Shown here: piece by piece, positions 3,269-16,715 of the stretch
How positions within the stretch are numbered: position 1 is the stretch's first letter
How the letters are laid out: every line of letters starts with the position of its first letter
Assembly (NCBI RefSeq): GCF_000420085.1
Contig: NZ_ATUG01000001.1
Location: forward strand, 1,116,001 to 1,180,000
Reading direction: 5' to 3'
From: Desulfospira joergensenii DSM 10085
GTDB taxonomy: Bacteria > Desulfobacterota > Desulfobacteria > Desulfobacterales > Desulfobacteraceae
Length of the DNA stretch: 64,000 nucleotides
The notes under the pieces: generated by a model
The model's database searches: none
Told to the model about the DNA's origin: nothing
The model's input: the letters and a program-made list of their open reading frames with translations, nothing else
Made by a program: the position numbers and the translations under genes

Positions 3269-5184
3269 AAGAGGAGAACAGACATGTGGTTCCCATCATC
3301 CTGGCCCTGGTGATTGCCATCGCCCCCCATACCCCGGGGCTGCCCCTCTGGATCAATGCCTGGTGTCTGATCATGTGGGGATATATGCTGGTCCGGCTGA
3401 AAACCGGGTGGCCCCTGCCCGGGGGGATTTTCAGGCACTTCCTTGCCTTTGCCGGTCTGGCCGGCCTGATCCTCACCTATAAAACCCGCCTGGACTCGAA
3501 CACCTTTGTGGGACTCATGGCAGTCATGGCTGCGGTCAAGCCCTTTGAGACCGCCACCCACCGCCATAGGATGATCACCATCCTGCTCACCTACTTCATC
3601 ATCATCACCAGTCTGTTTCAATCCGACTCCCTCTGGATCCTGCTCTATATGTTCTTTTCCGTCCTGGTGACCACCATTTCCCTGATCCGGATCAACGATC
3701 TTACGGGCCGGTTCCGAGCAAGCCTTGCCCTGGCCTGCCGGATCATGGGCCAGGCCCTGCCCCTGGTGATTCTTCTCTTTTTCCTTTTTCCCCGACTCCA
3801 GGACGGAGTGTTCGGAATGAAGGATATCCGGAGGGGAAGGACCGGTTTTTCGGAGAGACTCACCCCCGGCAGTGTCTCCGGTCTGGCCAGGGACAATTCC
3901 ACTGCATTCCGGGTCCAATTTAAAACCCTTCCGGCCGGGGGCCTTTACTGGCGGGGGATCGTATTTGAACAATTCAACGGAAAATCATGGCTACCTGCGG
4001 AGCAGCAGGGGGTTCCGGCAAAGGCCAGCCCCGGATCCAAGGAACTTTTTCCCCACACCATTATCCTGGAACCCCATCACAGCCGTTGGCTGTTCGGACT
4101 GGATGTTCCGGTTCAGGTCCAGGGAAATGCCCTTATCACCCAATCCCATACCCTGAGATCCCGGTGGAAAATCCGCAGAAAAACAACCTACCGGGTGATT
4201 TCCAGGCCGGGCCCTGTTCCGGACCCGGGCCGGGTCCCATTGATTTCCATCGACCCGGACAGCAATCCCGGAACCCGGCGCCTGGCCAGAGACCTTGCTA
4301 TGGGCGCCCCGGGGGTTGAGGAAAAAATCCAGAGGATCCTGGACTTTTTCAAGACAAACGGTTTTATCTATACCCTGTCCCCGGGCAGGATCGATGCAGA
4401 CTCCCTGGACCATTTTCTCCTGGAAAACAAAAAAGGATACTGCGAACATTATGCCTCGGCCTTTGCTTTTATGATGAATGTGCTCGGGGTTCCGGCCCGG
4501 GTGGTGGGCGGATACCTGGGGGGAGAACTCAACCCCTATGCCAATCATCTCATCGTCCGCCAGTCTTCCGCCCATGCATGGGCCGAGGTCTTTGTGCCGG
4601 ACAGAGGATGGATCCGGATCGATCCCACCCTTTCCGTATCACCGGAACGGATCTTTCAGAACCCGGACGGCAGCCCGGCCCGAACTTCCCTGGATCGGAT
4701 CTCAATTTTTAAAAAACTGGAATATTTGATGGAGAGTATCAACCTCAGGTGGGAGGCCTGGTTCACGGGATTTTCCCATGAGGCCCAGAAGGCCCTTCTC
4801 CAGCGGCTGGGGATCCTCACTCCCTTGAGTCCAGCCAAAACCATGGCCCTGTTTCTGGGGGGCACCGGTCTTGTCCTGGTTTTGTTTTTTCTCTTTCTAA
4901 GACGGATCCACGGTTCTTCTTTTTCTTCCCGGGATCCGGTGAAAAAGGCCTATCTTGAATTCTGCCGGCGCCTGGCCCGGGCAGGGCTGCCCCCCAAAGC
5001 TCAGGGCCAGGGGGCTGTGGATTATGCCTCCAGAATCTGCCGGGAACGGCCGGATCTGAAATTTGAGGTGGAAAGGATTTCAGATCTTTACGTCCGGATC
5101 CGGTTCCATCGGAACAGCCCGGAAGAGTTGAAATTCGTCCTGAAAAAAAGGATAAAAGAATTTAAGCCGAGGCCGGATGGATAA
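3265..5184 (+). CDS. Transglutaminase-like membrane protein (TgpA type, DUF3488/DUF4129)
   Basis: This 639-aa protein has an N-terminal block of several membrane helices (about 1-170), a periplasmic transglutaminase-like domain, one further membrane helix near 528-548 and a cytoplasmic DUF4129-like tail. The cysteine-protease-type triad is complete: Cys393 (GYCEHYASAF), His437 (AHAWAEV) and Asp453 (RIDPT). The start is GTG at 3265, overlapping DUF58 by four bases. Such proteins follow MoxR and DUF58 genes in many bacteria; the Pseudomonas relative TgpA is essential, with an unclear substrate. The role here is inferred only from family and operon. Confidence 0.9.
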   Translation: MKEENRHVVPIILALVIAIAPHTPGLPLWINAWCLIMWGYMLVRLKTGWPLPGGIFRHFLAFAGLAGLILTYKTRLDSNTFVGLMAVMAAVKPFETATHRHRMITILLTYFIIITSLFQSDSLWILLYMFFSVLVTTISLIRINDLTGRFRASLALACRIMGQALPLVILLFFLFPRLQDGVFGMKDIRRGRTGFSERLTPGSVSGLARDNSTAFRVQFKTLPAGGLYWRGIVFEQFNGKSWLPAEQQGVPAKASPGSKELFPHTIILEPHHSRWLFGLDVPVQVQGNALITQSHTLRSRWKIRRKTTYRVISRPGPVPDPGRVPLISIDPDSNPGTRRLARDLAMGAPGVEEKIQRILDFFKTNGFIYTLSPGRIDADSLDHFLLENKKGYCEHYASAFAFMMNVLGVPARVVGGYLGGELNPYANHLIVRQSSAHAWAEVFVPDRGWIRIDPTLSVSPERIFQNPDGSPARTSLDRISIFKKLEYLMESINLRWEAWFTGFSHEAQKALLQRLGILTPLSPAKTMALFLGGTGLVLVLFFLFLRRIHGSSFSSRDPVKKAYLEFCRRLARAGLPPKAQGQGAVDYASRICRERPDLKFEVERISDLYVRIRFHRNSPEELKFVLKKRIKEFKPRPDG

Positions 5185-10651: not shown

Positions 10652-11215
10652 CTATGACCAGGGCAGCCAGGGCAGTCCTTCCCGCAACCCCTGGCGCATG
10701 CGTTCAGCAGAGCCCTGCCGATACCCGTACACCCGCATGCCGAAGATATTGATCATGAGACTGGTTGCACGCTTCCGGCTCAAAGGCTGGCCGAATTCCT
10801 TTTCAAGATAACTCTCATAAAGAGCTTCGATCTCACCAAGCTTTTCAGATGCCAGAACATGGAGCCGGTTACCTGCGGCAGCCAGTTCCAACTGGGTTTT
10901 GACCAGAAAACAACTGCAGTAATCTTTTTTGGCAGATTCCTGAATATTTTTTTCCAGAATCATTAGAATACCTTCCCCAACACTAGGCGCCGCTTCCAGC
11001 GTGCTGGATATCAAGGCAAGACTTTTCCGGCCATAGGCCTCCAGGGCTTCCCGGAACAGGTCCTCTTTACTGCCAAAGGCATGATAAATGGATCCGGGAT
11101 TGAGACCTGTGATTTTCACCACCTGCTGCATGGATGAAAAACTGAAGCCGTTCTTCCAGAAAAGCTGAATGGACTTATCAATGACCTCATTTCTATCAAA
11201 TAGGGATTTTGCCAT
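10652..11215 (-). CDS. TetR-family transcriptional regulator
   Basis: This 187-aa regulator has an N-terminal TetR helix-turn-helix (about 8-55; SMQQVVKITGLNPGSIYHAFGSKEDLF) and an all-helical ligand domain. It contains a CSC motif (KKDYCSCFLVKTQLELA) in the region where NemR/AcuR-like members carry a conserved block. It is divergent from the selenoprotein gene, and two matching palindromes lie in the shared promoter region. It probably represses itself and the redox protein and is released by an oxidant or electrophile. That is inference from context; the pair of nearby cysteines makes direct thiol sensing possible. The ATG has GAGG seven bases upstream. Confidence 0.9.
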   Translation of the reverse strand: MAKSLFDRNEVIDKSIQLFWKNGFSFSSMQQVVKITGLNPGSIYHAFGSKEDLFREALEAYGRKSLALISSTLEAAPSVGEGILMILEKNIQESAKKDYCSCFLVKTQLELAAAGNRLHVLASEKLGEIEALYESYLEKEFGQPLSRKRATSLMINIFGMRVYGYRQGSAERMRQGLREGLPWLPWS

Positions 11216-11284: not shown

Positions 11285-11288
11285 AATT

Positions 11289-11310
11289 ATTTTGAGCGAT
11301 TGTTCAAAAT
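11289..11310. promoter_or_regulatory. TetR operator 1
   Basis: ATTTTGAG-N6-TTCAAAAT, one mismatch from a perfect palindrome. It has the same half-sites and spacing as operator 2 and lies just upstream of the -35 boxes of both divergent promoters. Confidence 0.75.
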
Positions 11311-11314
11311 ATCA

Positions 11315-11342
11315 TTGACAATATGCAAGGCGGTTTTATTTT
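11315..11342 (+). promoter_or_regulatory. Sigma-70 promoter of the selenoprotein gene
   Basis: TTGACA (11315-11320), 16-base spacer, TATTTT (11337-11342). Operator 2 overlaps the -10 box and start site, a position suited to repression. Confidence 0.65.
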
Positions 11343-11359
11343 GAACGTATATTCAAAAT
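11338..11359. promoter_or_regulatory. TetR operator 2
   Basis: ATTTTGAA-N6-TTCAAAAT, a perfect 8+8 palindrome whose centre is 49 bases from that of operator 1. It covers the -10 region of the selenoprotein promoter. Confidence 0.8.
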
Positions 11360-11411
11360 CATGTTTTCACCCATACCCATTTCAACCGGTTTCCATTTTA
11401 AGGAGAATAAT

Positions 11412-12059
11412 ATGTCACTTGAAGAACAACTGACTGCCATAAAGAAAAAGACCATTGCCACAAGACCGCCGGAGCTGGTCTCCATAATGCTTGAGGAGGC
11501 TGCAAACCTTGTAAAATCAGGTATCGCTGACAAAGTGATAAAAGCGGGTGAGCCCCTTCCTGAGTTTACCCTGCCCGATGAAAAAGGCAATCTGGTCCGC
11601 TCAGCGAACCTGCTGGCACAGGGGCCGCTGGCCATCAATTTTTACCGGGGTATCTGGTGACCTTATTGCAATATAGAGCTGGCAGCTCTGCAAGAAATTT
11701 CTGTACAGATCCGGGACATGGGCGGATTTTTAATCTCCATTTCCCCCCAACTGGGAAAATACACCAAACAGATAGTAAAGAAAAACAGCCTCACCTTTCC
11801 CGTACTTGCGGATAAAGACAACGCCTATGCAAAGAAATTGAATCTGGACTTTATCCTCCCGGAGAAATTGAAAGAAGTCTACAAAACCTTGGGTATTGAT
11901 CTTGAGCGGTTCAACGGCAACGCTTCCTGGGAGCTTCCCATGGCCGCAAGATTCATTATTGACCGAAACGGGATTATCAGACACAGGAAAGTGAACCCGG
12001 ACCACACGGTCAGGCCGGAACCGGGTGAGATCATTGACCTGATGAAACCCCTGATGTAA
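11412..12059 (+). CDS. Peroxiredoxin-like selenoprotein (UPYC active site, in-frame UGA)
   Basis: One reading frame of 216 codons is interrupted only by TGA at 11658-11660. Around it the protein reads FYRGIW-U-PYCNIEL. The peroxiredoxin-like (AhpC/TSA) family normally has GWCPYCN here, so UGA stands exactly where the first active-site cysteine belongs and is best read as selenocysteine (residue 83; partner Cys86). The rest is colinear with the family, including FTLPDEKGNL before and WELPMAARFIIDRNGIIRHRKVNPDH after. The ATG at 11412 follows AGGAG; an in-frame ATG at 11361 lacks such a site. Naive annotation would split the gene in two. It probably reduces peroxides or disulfides under TetR control. 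Confidence 0.88.
11675..11689 (+). promoter_or_regulatory. Candidate bacterial SECIS hairpin
   Basis: AGAGCT (11675-11680), loop GGC, AGCTCT (11684-11689), inside the coding sequence. The loop begins 20 bases after the UGA, within the usual distance of bacterial SECIS elements. The loop contains GG, as in known SelB-binding loops. Confidence 0.65.
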
Positions 12060-12662: not shown

Positions 12663-12679
12663 TTGGTACGCTCCTTGCT
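12663..12679 (+). promoter_or_regulatory. Sigma-54 promoter of flagellin 1
   Basis: TTGGTACGCTCCTTGCT fits the -24/-12 consensus with GG and GC exactly 12 bases apart. Predicted start is near 12690, only about six bases before the flagellin ATG. The same element type precedes flagellin 3 and flgN. Confidence 0.6.
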
Positions 12680-12695
12680 ATGTAAGGCATATATT

Positions 12696-15600
12696 ATGGT
12701 TTTAAGTATCAAAAGCAATACGGGTGCGGAGACGGCTGTCCGCCATCTGGGTAAAAACGACGGGCGCCTTTCCGCCTCCCTGGAAAGGCTGTCCAGCGGC
12801 CTGAGGGTGAACAAGGCAGCCGATGACAGCTCCGGAATGCTGATAGCCGATTCCTTAAATTCCCAGGCCAGGGGACTGGGGCAGGCCATCCGGAATGCCA
12901 ATGATGCCATCTCCATTGTCCAGATTGCCGACGCAGCCCTGGAAGAATCCGTCAATATTTTGAACACCATCAAGACCAAGAGCATCCAGGCGGCCCAGGA
13001 CGGCCAGACTACAGAGTCCAGGGCAGCCATCCAGGCGGATATTGACAAGCTCATGGAAGAGCTGGATACCATTGCCAAGACCACCTCTTTTAATGGCCAA
13101 AAACTGCTTTCCGGCAACTTCACCAACAAGGCATTCCAGATCGGGGCCTACTCCAATGAGGTGGTCAATCTTTCCATAGATGGGTCATCTTCCGGAAAAA
13201 TAGGCCATATCAACACTGGGGAACTGGAAATTACCGGAAATAAGGAAGGCCTTGCCGCTTTGAGTATCCAGAACAGATATACTGGGCAGCATTATGAGAT
13301 CACGCCGGTTGAGATGCTCTTTGACAATGACCCGGAACACGGCCTGGGTGCCCTTGCCGATGCCGTCAACCAGATATCCGATTTGACCGGCATCCGGGTT
13401 TCGGCCCGTGTGGCTTCAGGCACAGACACGGGAGTCCAGGCAGGAACCACGGATGAAGCCTTTTCCATCAACAATGTAAAAATCGGCAAAATCACGGTCA
13501 TGGAAAACGATGGGGACGGCGCCCTGGTCAAGGCCATCAACCAGAGGACGGCCCAGCACGGGGTGGTTGCTTCGGTGGACCCGGCAGGCAGGCTCTCCTT
13601 GACCGCAACCGACGGCAGGGGCATCCTCGTCGAGCCCGGCCCGGACCTGGAAATAGAGGGCAGAGATATCTTCGGAGGAAAAGACCTGAGTACTTTCGGG
13701 GTTCTGGACATCCAGGGCAGTGCCGCTTCTCCTTTGGATATCCGGGATCTGAGCAAGGGAGATCCCATCGGAGTGGCCGATGCCGGCCTGGAAATCAAAG
13801 GAGATACCCTGACCGGGCAGGACGCTCTTGTAAAGGCCGGTTCGATTCTGGCTGCCCAGTCCATTCTCGCCTCCTCCTGGACAATGAACCAGAACATCTC
13901 CGGGGACCAGCTTCAAGAAGATATTTTCATCGAGGAGACCACCCGTTTACTTCCGGGGACCATCCTCGGCAAGGACTCTGTTGTGCTGACCCCGGATGAC
14001 CTGCCCGTTACCCTGAGTGTAAACTCTGAAGGAACGACCTTCACTGAGAGTCTGGTTAAAACAGGCTCCATCCTTGCCAAAGACAGCATCCTGGGCCCGG
14101 GCACCCAGATCCCTGCCGGCAATATCGTGAGCGCAGGCACCCTGTACAAAGGAGATGTACTGATTGACGCCACCCTGGCCACCACGGCGTCAAGCATGGT
14201 CAAACAGGACTCTGTTCTTGCGGCCGGATCCGTGATCGCCTCGGGCAGCACCCTGACCGGAACTGCCCAGATCAATGCAGTCGGCCCCCTGAACGGAAGC
14301 GCACTGATCTCCTCGAACTCTGTTCTCAGGGCCGGATCTGTCATTGCTTCCGGGACCACCCTGGGCGGAAATGCGGTTGTGGCAGGGATTGCCAACACCA
14401 CTGGGGTCTATTCCCTGACCGCCGGCTCCACTCTGGCAGCCAACTCCGAGATTGCCTCGGGTACGATTCTGGGGGGAGATGCGTGGTGCAACCAGGTACC
14501 CAACATATCCAGTTCCTACGACCTTACGGCCAATTCCATTCTCCAGACCGGTTCTGTCCTGACCTCGGGAGCTGTCCTGAGCAGAACCGCTGTCATTGCC
14601 GACACCGGCCCTATCCCGGCCGGATTCAACCTGATTGCCGGATCGATTCTGAGAGCCGGGTCCTCCATAGGGGCCGGAACGACCCTCGCGGACACGGCCG
14701 TAATCTCCACTACCGGGCCGACCACTGGGAACTATATTGTGGAGAGCGGATCTACCCTGACTGCAGGCACTGTTTTCGGGGACGGCTCAATCCTCAACGG
14801 AACCGCAACAATCAACCAGATCACCGCGACCGGCAACCCCGGAGATGACATCACCCTGGCGGCAGGCACGGTTTTAGCTGCCGGGACCTATATCGAATCC
14901 GGCAATTCAATATCCACAACCAGCGGCGTGCTCAACGGCCCCCTTTTCCTTGCGGGGAGCAAAACCACGACCGGAGTCAACACCTTTTTTCTTACCTCCG
15001 GCTCAATTGCTGCGGGCTCTGTTCTGGCCAACGGCTCTGTTGCAGGAACCCCAGCCTTTTCTCTCCAAACGGCAATGAATCCCACGGCCCTGACCACCCT
15101 GAGGGCGGGAAGTGTTCTCGGTAACAACACCAGCCTTGTCGCAGGATCCGTGATCGGCCCAGACAGCGCATCCCTTTCCGCTGACCTGACCCTGACCAAT
15201 CCCATGACCCTGACCATGGGATCGTCAATGGCCGACAACTCCAGGCTTTTCCAGGGCTCGACAGTCGGGCCCGGCGGGGTGTCGCTCTTCTCTTCTCTCA
15301 CGCTGACCGGAGTGACCATGACCCTGCCTCCGGGCTGCACCATTGCGGCAGGCAGCCGTCTCAACCAGGGATCGATTGTCGGGGCCGAGGGGCTGCGCCT
15401 GTCAGCGGTCATGGGCCTGACCGCGGACATGGATCTTCAAGCAGGATCTCAGATCAACACCTCATCCTCCTTCAATACAGGCTCACTGATCGGACCTGAA
15501 GATGTGATTCTGATTGCAAACCTTACCGTCAATAGCCCCATGAACCTGGCCGCAGGATCTTCCATTGCCGGACTCAGCACCCTGGAACAGAGCAGCCTGG

Positions 15601-16715
15601 TTTCGAGCGATAAAATCACCCTGGCCTCGGCCATGACTCTGGATCAGGATATGACGCTTGCAGCAGGATCCAGTATGGGGAAAGGCACAGCCATCCAGTA
15701 TGGCTCTTACCTGTGGGCCGACGCCACCCTGCTCTCAGACATGACCCTGAAAGAATCGGTCACCCTGGCCAGTGATATGGAACTCAATTCCGATCTGATC
15801 CTGGGGACGGGTTCCTCCCTTGGAGACAATTCCCTGATCTTCCAGGGATCCTCAATCTACTTGCCCCTGGAATTATTAGAGACCATAAGATTGGCGGATC
15901 CCCTTGTCCTGGATCCTGGATCAAAGTTCTCCAATGATTCAGAAACCCTTATTGTTTCAGGCACAACCGTAGGAGGAGAGGCTTCATTCGCTGAGGTTTT
16001 GGAGGTTCAAAATGATTTTATCCTGCCCGGTGAATCCATCTTAAAAAAGACTTCCATGCTCAAAAACGGATCTGATATCGGGGGAGACATCCGAACCCTC
16101 AACCGGGAAACCGTTCTCCTGCCCATGGCTATAGGTAAGGGTTCTGTACTGGCCGAGGGAAGCCTGCTCTCAAAAGGGACCCTCCTGGCCAATGATATTA
16201 CCGGGACAGACGGCAGTTTCTACCCGGAGGGCTCGTCTCTGGATGAAGATATTTTTATTCAGGAGACGGAATTATCCAATACCATGATATTGATGACGGG
16301 CTCTGAAATCGCAGAAGGCAGCCTTCTAAAGGCCAACTCCATCCAGAGGCATACCAGTACCCGGGTAACAAACACCCAATTGTCAACCCTTGCCGATATC
16401 CAGGTCCTGTCCGGAGAAGAGGCTCAACTGGCCATCGGACTGGCAGATGAAGCACTCAAGGATATTGACAGGATCCGGGCAAGTCTTGGATCTGTCCAGA
16501 ACCAGTTGACCTCCACCATCGCAGGAATCAGCACAACCCGGGTGAACGTCCGCGCCTCGGCTTCCGCCATCCGGGATGTTGATCTGTCCGAGGAGGTCCA
16601 GAACTTAAAAAAACTGGAGATCCTGGCCCAGGCCGGAAGATTTGCCCTGTCCGCCACCCCTTCCCGAACCTCTCACCTCCTGAGCCTGATTACCGAGCTT
16701 GATCAGAACGGATGA
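12696..16715 (+). CDS. fliC: Giant flagellin 1 (divergent paralog)
   Basis: This 1339-aa flagellin has an N-terminal D0/D1 region to about 170 (SLERLSSGLRVNKAADDSSGM), a flagellin-type domain to about 370, and a huge insert of roughly 380-1215 made of hexapeptide-like units such as AGSVIASGTTL. The D1/D0 C-terminus follows (ISTTRVNVRASASAIRDVDL). The ends differ from flagellins 2 and 3: it starts MVLSIKSNTG rather than MALRINTNVS and ends SLITELDQNG rather than NVLSLLQ. It also has two cysteines in the insert (DAWCNQ, PPGCTI). It is probably a minor filament subunit or located at a special place in the filament. The ATG at 12696 matches family starts; AAGG lies eight bases upstream. Usual flagellins are 270-550 aa. 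Confidence 0.92.
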   Translation: MVLSIKSNTGAETAVRHLGKNDGRLSASLERLSSGLRVNKAADDSSGMLIADSLNSQARGLGQAIRNANDAISIVQIADAALEESVNILNTIKTKSIQAAQDGQTTESRAAIQADIDKLMEELDTIAKTTSFNGQKLLSGNFTNKAFQIGAYSNEVVNLSIDGSSSGKIGHINTGELEITGNKEGLAALSIQNRYTGQHYEITPVEMLFDNDPEHGLGALADAVNQISDLTGIRVSARVASGTDTGVQAGTTDEAFSINNVKIGKITVMENDGDGALVKAINQRTAQHGVVASVDPAGRLSLTATDGRGILVEPGPDLEIEGRDIFGGKDLSTFGVLDIQGSAASPLDIRDLSKGDPIGVADAGLEIKGDTLTGQDALVKAGSILAAQSILASSWTMNQNISGDQLQEDIFIEETTRLLPGTILGKDSVVLTPDDLPVTLSVNSEGTTFTESLVKTGSILAKDSILGPGTQIPAGNIVSAGTLYKGDVLIDATLATTASSMVKQDSVLAAGSVIASGSTLTGTAQINAVGPLNGSALISSNSVLRAGSVIASGTTLGGNAVVAGIANTTGVYSLTAGSTLAANSEIASGTILGGDAWCNQVPNISSSYDLTANSILQTGSVLTSGAVLSRTAVIADTGPIPAGFNLIAGSILRAGSSIGAGTTLADTAVISTTGPTTGNYIVESGSTLTAGTVFGDGSILNGTATINQITATGNPGDDITLAAGTVLAAGTYIESGNSISTTSGVLNGPLFLAGSKTTTGVNTFFLTSGSIAAGSVLANGSVAGTPAFSLQTAMNPTALTTLRAGSVLGNNTSLVAGSVIGPDSASLSADLTLTNPMTLTMGSSMADNSRLFQGSTVGPGGVSLFSSLTLTGVTMTLPPGCTIAAGSRLNQGSIVGAEGLRLSAVMGLTADMDLQAGSQINTSSSFNTGSLIGPEDVILIANLTVNSPMNLAAGSSIAGLSTLEQSSLVSSDKITLASAMTLDQDMTLAAGSSMGKGTAIQYGSYLWADATLLSDMTLKESVTLASDMELNSDLILGTGSSLGDNSLIFQGSSIYLPLELLETIRLADPLVLDPGSKFSNDSETLIVSGTTVGGEASFAEVLEVQNDFILPGESILKKTSMLKNGSDIGGDIRTLNRETVLLPMAIGKGSVLAEGSLLSKGTLLANDITGTDGSFYPEGSSLDEDIFIQETELSNTMILMTGSEIAEGSLLKANSIQRHTSTRVTNTQLSTLADIQVLSGEEAQLAIGLADEALKDIDRIRASLGSVQNQLTSTIAGISTTRVNVRASASAIRDVDLSEEVQNLKKLEILAQAGRFALSATPSRTSHLLSLITELDQNG

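Follow-up and report, generated by a model that had tools for sequence, protein, structure and literature searches.

A probable TetR-controlled selenoprotein of peroxiredoxin fold with a UPYC site in Desulfospira joergensenii DSM 10085

The window analysed here, a stretch of 64,000 nucleotides from the anaerobic bacterium Desulfospira joergensenii DSM 10085, carries a peroxiredoxin-like gene in which a single in-frame UGA almost certainly encodes selenocysteine, as judged by comparison of its relatives. We consider it probable that the product is a selenoprotein of peroxiredoxin fold in which a SelB-inserted Sec83 acts as the nucleophile and Cys86 resolves it, and that a TetR-family regulator represses the gene via two palindromes.

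The gene (11412..12059, plus strand) encodes 215 residues via one UGA. Re-reading of the frame, from the ATG at 11412 to the TAA at 12057-12059, reproduced exactly the start, the end and the single TGA (codon 83, 11658..11660) given in an earlier note on this DNA. The ATG is preceded by a ribosome-binding-like AAGGAG (11400-11405), and genes for tRNA-Lys and tRNA-Glu lie 3' of the gene on the opposite strand. The active-site stretch around codon 83 reads FYRGIW-U-PYCNIEL, in which the TGC codon at 11667..11669 specifies the partner Cys86, the sole Cys of the protein and invariant across all compared sequences. The Pfam domains AhpC-TSA (2.2e-21) and Redoxin (8e-19) span the TGA and cover residues 44-199, in line with the earlier statement that frame and family similarity continue past it. 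AhpC-TSA (PF00578) scores 76.5 bits (cut-off 26) and the UxxC motif is UPYC, so that both features of Prx-like UxxC selenoproteins are present. Standard-code ORF calling cut the gene into ORFs of 99 and 113 residues, much as the earlier note had foreseen in saying that standard callers would miss or split it; annotation of this redox protein, which is widespread in Desulfobacterota, can thus easily lose the half with the active site. A mechanical scan of the window for further Sec genes gave no second convincing candidate. Downstream, at 12663-16715, the window also contains a 1350-residue ORF whose ends are flagellin-like and whose long centre is repetitive.

Relatives were searched among 98 related genomes and then among 395 genomes across the phylum. 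Most near-full-length homologues in the former set contain one TGA, as do 27 of the 28 matches with E < 1e-60 in the latter, the window being counted among them. The aligned codon-83 column holds TGA in 42 compared genes and Cys in 81, which bears out the expectation that relatives would have Cys at this very place. The TGA-bearing genes, spread across Desulfobacterota, have the motif RG-x-W-U-[PR]-[YF]-C, with Cys86 kept throughout; the nearest relative, from Desulfosediminicola flagellatus (66% identity), has the TGA likewise. Homologues of the Cys type occur in Burkholderiaceae, rhizobia, Roseobacteraceae and Flavobacteriaceae. When 91 sequences were placed on a tree, five changes of the Sec/Cys label were required, at least two of them forced by well-supported branches, compared to about 31 for shuffled labels. 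Sec and Cys have thus probably been exchanged more than once within the family, the direction and number of exchanges being uncertain on a tree with long branches. The matched Sec and Cys branches suit the study of this exchange and of the gain and loss of SECIS elements.

Two further sets of sequences came to light in this search. One homologue (L136, G003:C378, minus strand, 3993-4625) has TAA in place of the Sec codon, and its hairpin is mismatched. A new code at this codon was rejected, because the tRNA-Sec of G003, like that of the host genome, has the anticodon UCA, and the gene is probably decayed or affected by a sequence error. In addition, a separate and distant Prx-like family (L028, L029 and L030 of G071, G022 and G008) has the motif FYRGHWUPFC with an in-frame TGA, and its members are about 250-400 residues long with an extra C-terminal part.

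The bacterial SECIS element (11666..11693, plus strand) consists of an upper hairpin, TAGAGCT-GGC-AGCTCTG (11674-11690), on a short lower stem of the TTGC/GCAA type. Its GGC loop (11681-11683) lies exactly 20 nt past the UGA on a 7-bp stem, with a minimum free energy (MFE) of -8.4 kcal/mol. The published bacterial model requires a G among the first two bases of the loop, a loop of 3-9 nt, a stem of 4-16 bp, a distance of 16-37 nt after the UGA and an MFE of at most -7.5 kcal/mol (PMC13188914), and the host hairpin agrees with it on every point. The GG-loop hairpin described in the earlier note also proved real by comparison: a hairpin in the same register, with a stem of 4 bp or more and a G at the same loop positions, is found in 32 of 44 Sec-type genes (L136 with its TAA and the divergent L178 being counted in the 44) but in none of 83 Cys genes. 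Synonymous recoding of the 44 genes gave a mean of 2.2 such hairpins and a maximum of 8 over 300 trials, and only 0.5% of the synonymous recodings of the host gene have a stem of six or more pairs in the host register. By this measure on coding sequences, the conservation of the hairpin is greater than the protein sequence forces. A looser hairpin model fitted 42 of the 44 Sec-type genes, against a null of 18.9, and 18 of the 83 Cys genes. By energy, the host hairpin does not stand out from dinucleotide shuffles (z from -0.64 to 0.25), and Sec and Cys genes could not be told apart by mean MFE, whereas the position-specific test distinguished them; an Rfam search of the region returned no SECIS-type family. 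In several genes without the main register (L157, L162, L164 and L167, GAGCTGCGGTCATTGCAGC), a hairpin with a GGUC loop could form at a shifted position, a hint that the SECIS element is actively kept and not just passed on by descent.

The host genome (6.1 Mb in six contigs) encodes the complete selenocysteine machinery, with matches to SelA (1.8e-156) and SelB (3.6e-101), a tRNA-Sec (selC) of 76 bits, and two SelD genes above the cut-off; all four genes that the earlier note had named as a check are therefore present, and the objection that the machinery might be missing falls away. The contamination estimate of 5.9% is of no concern here, since selA, selB and selC lie on the contig that bears the window. 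Each selD copy (G000:C2:1827537-1828460 and G000:C2:846647-847576) has one in-frame TGA, so that both selenophosphate synthetases seem to be selenoproteins themselves. In the SelD that was inspected, the TGA falls within GAG-U-ASKLPP near the protein start, which we take to be the usual Sec/Cys place of SelD.

A dead or split gene, with the TGA as a genuine stop or a sequencing error, would find a parallel in decayed copies among the relatives, namely the G003 gene with its TAA and a G016 copy that lacks its N-terminal half. It is nevertheless extremely improbable, as the same TGA recurs in over 40 genes from many families, the protein is conserved on both sides of it and the SECIS element is retained. 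We rejected an ordinary stop or sequencing error on the conservation of both TGA and SECIS.

AlphaFold2 predicted the structure of the protein with a mean pLDDT of 95.2 and a pTM of 0.91, with a thioredoxin-like fold of the AhpC/TSA type and a helix (residues 84-102) that starts directly after residue 83. Structural similarity search against the PDB revealed the peroxiredoxins Bcp/PrxQ and AhpE as the top matches, with ResA thiol-disulfide oxidoreductases also scoring high. In peroxiredoxins, the N-terminal Cys of the motif is lost (TxxC) and an Arg occupies the cis-Pro place (PMC2757866). Sequence alignments placed U83 of the host on the Thr/Ser column, C86 on that of the peroxidatic Cys and R79 on that of Pro, giving RxxxUxxC instead of PxxxTxxC. 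At column 178, which we read from the alignment as the probable cis-Pro column, the residues are P, V, S, A or T and never Arg; the host has Ala, and most of the family has the Pro of thioredoxins. Given the Arg at 79, the Sec or Cys at the Thr column and the lack of a cis-Pro Arg, the predicted model and the alignments indicate a peroxiredoxin fold with a thioredoxin-like site. The earlier claim that Sec replaces the catalytic Cys holds in so far as Sec stands in place of the N-terminal Cys of a thioredoxin-like CxxC, but Cys86 still stands where classical peroxiredoxins have their peroxidatic Cys. Sec83 and Cys86 are the only selenol and thiol residues of the protein; a selenenylsulfide cycle between them is the simplest inference, and the protein is more probably a redox enzyme working through Sec83 and Cys86 than a classical peroxiredoxin.

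Upstream of the Sec gene, a divergent gene (10652..11215, minus strand) encodes a TetR-family regulator of 187 residues with a TetR_N domain (PF00440, 5e-11) and a conserved YCSCFL motif. The intergenic region contains two operator-like palindromes of 24 nt, 49 nt apart, at 11287..11310 (TTGAGCGATTGTTCAA, core at 11292-11307) and 11336..11359 (TTGAACGTATATTCAA, core at 11341-11356), which share the core TTGARC-N4-RTTCAA. They flank the TTGACA box of a promoter-like element on the plus strand (11315..11342; TTGACA, 16 nt, TATTTT), and the second overlaps its -10-like part. A TetR_N domain with palindromic sites at the target promoter makes up a candidate repressor-operator unit. Across the host genome, an operator search yielded 12 matches; only the Sec-gene promoter has a pair, the others being single and mostly intragenic.

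Paired palindromes occur in four genomes, that of the window and three others, where they lie upstream of the Sec gene of Desulfosediminicola, a prx remnant of G016 and a LUD-domain gene of G032. In each case a TTGACA-like box accompanies the pair, and the window and Desulfosediminicola have CATTGACAAT in common. The three other genomes have an orthologue of the regulator (66-73%), which in Desulfosediminicola is not adjacent to the Sec gene; no orthologue was detected in four further genomes tested, G003, G060, G072 and G074, and most Sec relatives have no such TetR gene alongside. The earlier guess of TetR control thus gains from palindrome pairs that are conserved before the Sec gene of another genus and beside TetR orthologues, and comparison gives good support for such control in this branch, not in the whole family. 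YCSCFL is kept in the orthologues that were read (window, G016 and G032) and could serve as a thiol sensor. The G016 remnant (L147, G016:C1, minus strand, about 4300-4740) retains residues 108-214 only, with both palindromes upstream, and this genome has an intact Cys paralogue elsewhere. In G032, the LUD-domain gene (L146:12505-12999) is divergent from the TetR orthologue and bears the same operator pair, making it a possible second target of the regulator.

Altogether, we propose that SelB and the UCA-bearing Sec-tRNA, guided by the hairpin 20 nt downstream, would insert selenocysteine at UGA codon 83. In the predicted structure, the first active-site helix begins at the selenolate, as it does at the nucleophilic Cys of thioredoxins, and from there the selenolate may attack an oxidised or electrophilic substrate such as a hydroperoxide, a disulfide or thiosulfinate, or a thiol adduct. 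Cys86, the only other thiol, would resolve the intermediate as a selenenylsulfide, and a cellular thiol donor would re-reduce the enzyme. The divergent TetR protein would repress the gene through the two palindromes and release them in the presence of an inducer, possibly via its conserved CxC.

What the enzyme acts on may be read in different ways. As a classical peroxidase, Sec83 would directly reduce H2O2 or organic hydroperoxides and the TetR protein would respond to peroxide. The fold and the Pfam families agree with this, Prx-like and AhpD-like selenoprotein neighbours have been reported (PMC2398784), and a CMD/AhpD-type gene lies just upstream at two of the Cys loci inspected (L063 by Pfam, L103 by eye). 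However, the protein has neither the PxxxTxxC motif nor the catalytic Arg of peroxiredoxins, and we regard this reading as rather doubtful. Somewhat better placed, if still short of an even chance, is a thiol-disulfide oxidoreductase or thiol-adduct reductase that works in electrophile or disulfide stress with no real peroxidase activity. The thioredoxin-like UPYC site and the ResA/DsbE-like matches point in this direction, as do the neighbours of the Sec gene in two relatives. In G060, an operon continues within about 20-30 nt of the Sec gene with a Flavodoxin_2 (flavodoxin-fold reductase) gene, a KefC-type exchanger (Na_H_Exchanger + TrkA_N) and a second Flavodoxin_2 gene, and DSBA and HxlR genes lie on its upstream side; in Desulfosediminicola, a glyoxalase-family gene and one for glutamate-cysteine ligase lie downstream. 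This mix is like two gene sets of Pseudomonas, tetR-dsbA and ahpD-oye-kefF-kefC, which confer resistance to allicin (PMC7119367). Against this reading, the stress-linked neighbours come from these two genomes only, other Sec relatives having unrelated ones and the host gene having tRNA genes after it instead of stress genes, and the cis-Pro of thioredoxins is Ala in the host protein.

The neighbourhoods suggest electrophile or disulfide stress over plain peroxide; the high-reactivity peroxide or electrophile defence named in the earlier note stays conjectural, with electrophile or disulfide stress favoured by the neighbours in some relatives only. A more specific and unlikely version is a selenium-based electrophile response, in which the CxC of the TetR protein would sense thiol-reactive compounds and induce a selenol reductase of Prx fold whose substrates are thiol adducts or disulfides and not peroxide. 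If true, this activity would be one not yet assigned to any Prx-like selenoprotein.

Prx-like UxxC selenoproteins have been known since about 2005, from the Sargasso Sea survey and later work (PMC1088965, PMC2398784), and a predicted class with PF00578 and UxxC appears in lists of selenoproteins (PMC9312934, PMC13188914). By domain and motif, the Sec83-Cys86 protein described here belongs to this class and is less novel than the earlier note implied. To this the present analysis adds a SECIS test across the subfamily, a reading of the site from structure and the pair of TetR operators. As the class has no assigned substrate, the operator pair and the electrophile-type neighbours provide a testable lead on the timing and target of the enzyme.

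Compared to the Prx-like UxxC selenoproteins ("Prx-like thiol:disulfide oxidoreductase", PF00578, UxxC/UxxU; Prx-like 1 of the GOS survey), the host protein shares the Pfam domain, Sec as the first residue of UxxC and a bacterial SECIS; publications define the class by no more than domain and motif, and it is on these grounds that the host, a member of a 215-residue RGxWUPYC subfamily, is likened to it. The Cys homologues of the host are annotated as "peroxiredoxin-like family protein", the name under which a cd02970 (PRX_like2) protein with UxxS is also listed as a selenoprotein (PMC13188914), and PRX_like2 proteins have a thioredoxin-type CxxC (PMC3514251). This likeness is one of annotation name, and the second residue is Ser in the listed protein but Cys in the host. 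Bcp/PrxQ and AhpE share the fold (TM-score about 0.8-0.9 by target length) but have PxxxTxxC and the peroxiredoxin Arg, compared to RxxxUxxC and no such Arg in the host. The ResA/DsbE-type thiol-disulfide oxidoreductases match in fold and in a CxxC-type site at a helix start, whereas the host protein has no evident signal peptide and possesses extra N-terminal helices, an AhpC-TSA domain and Sec in the site.
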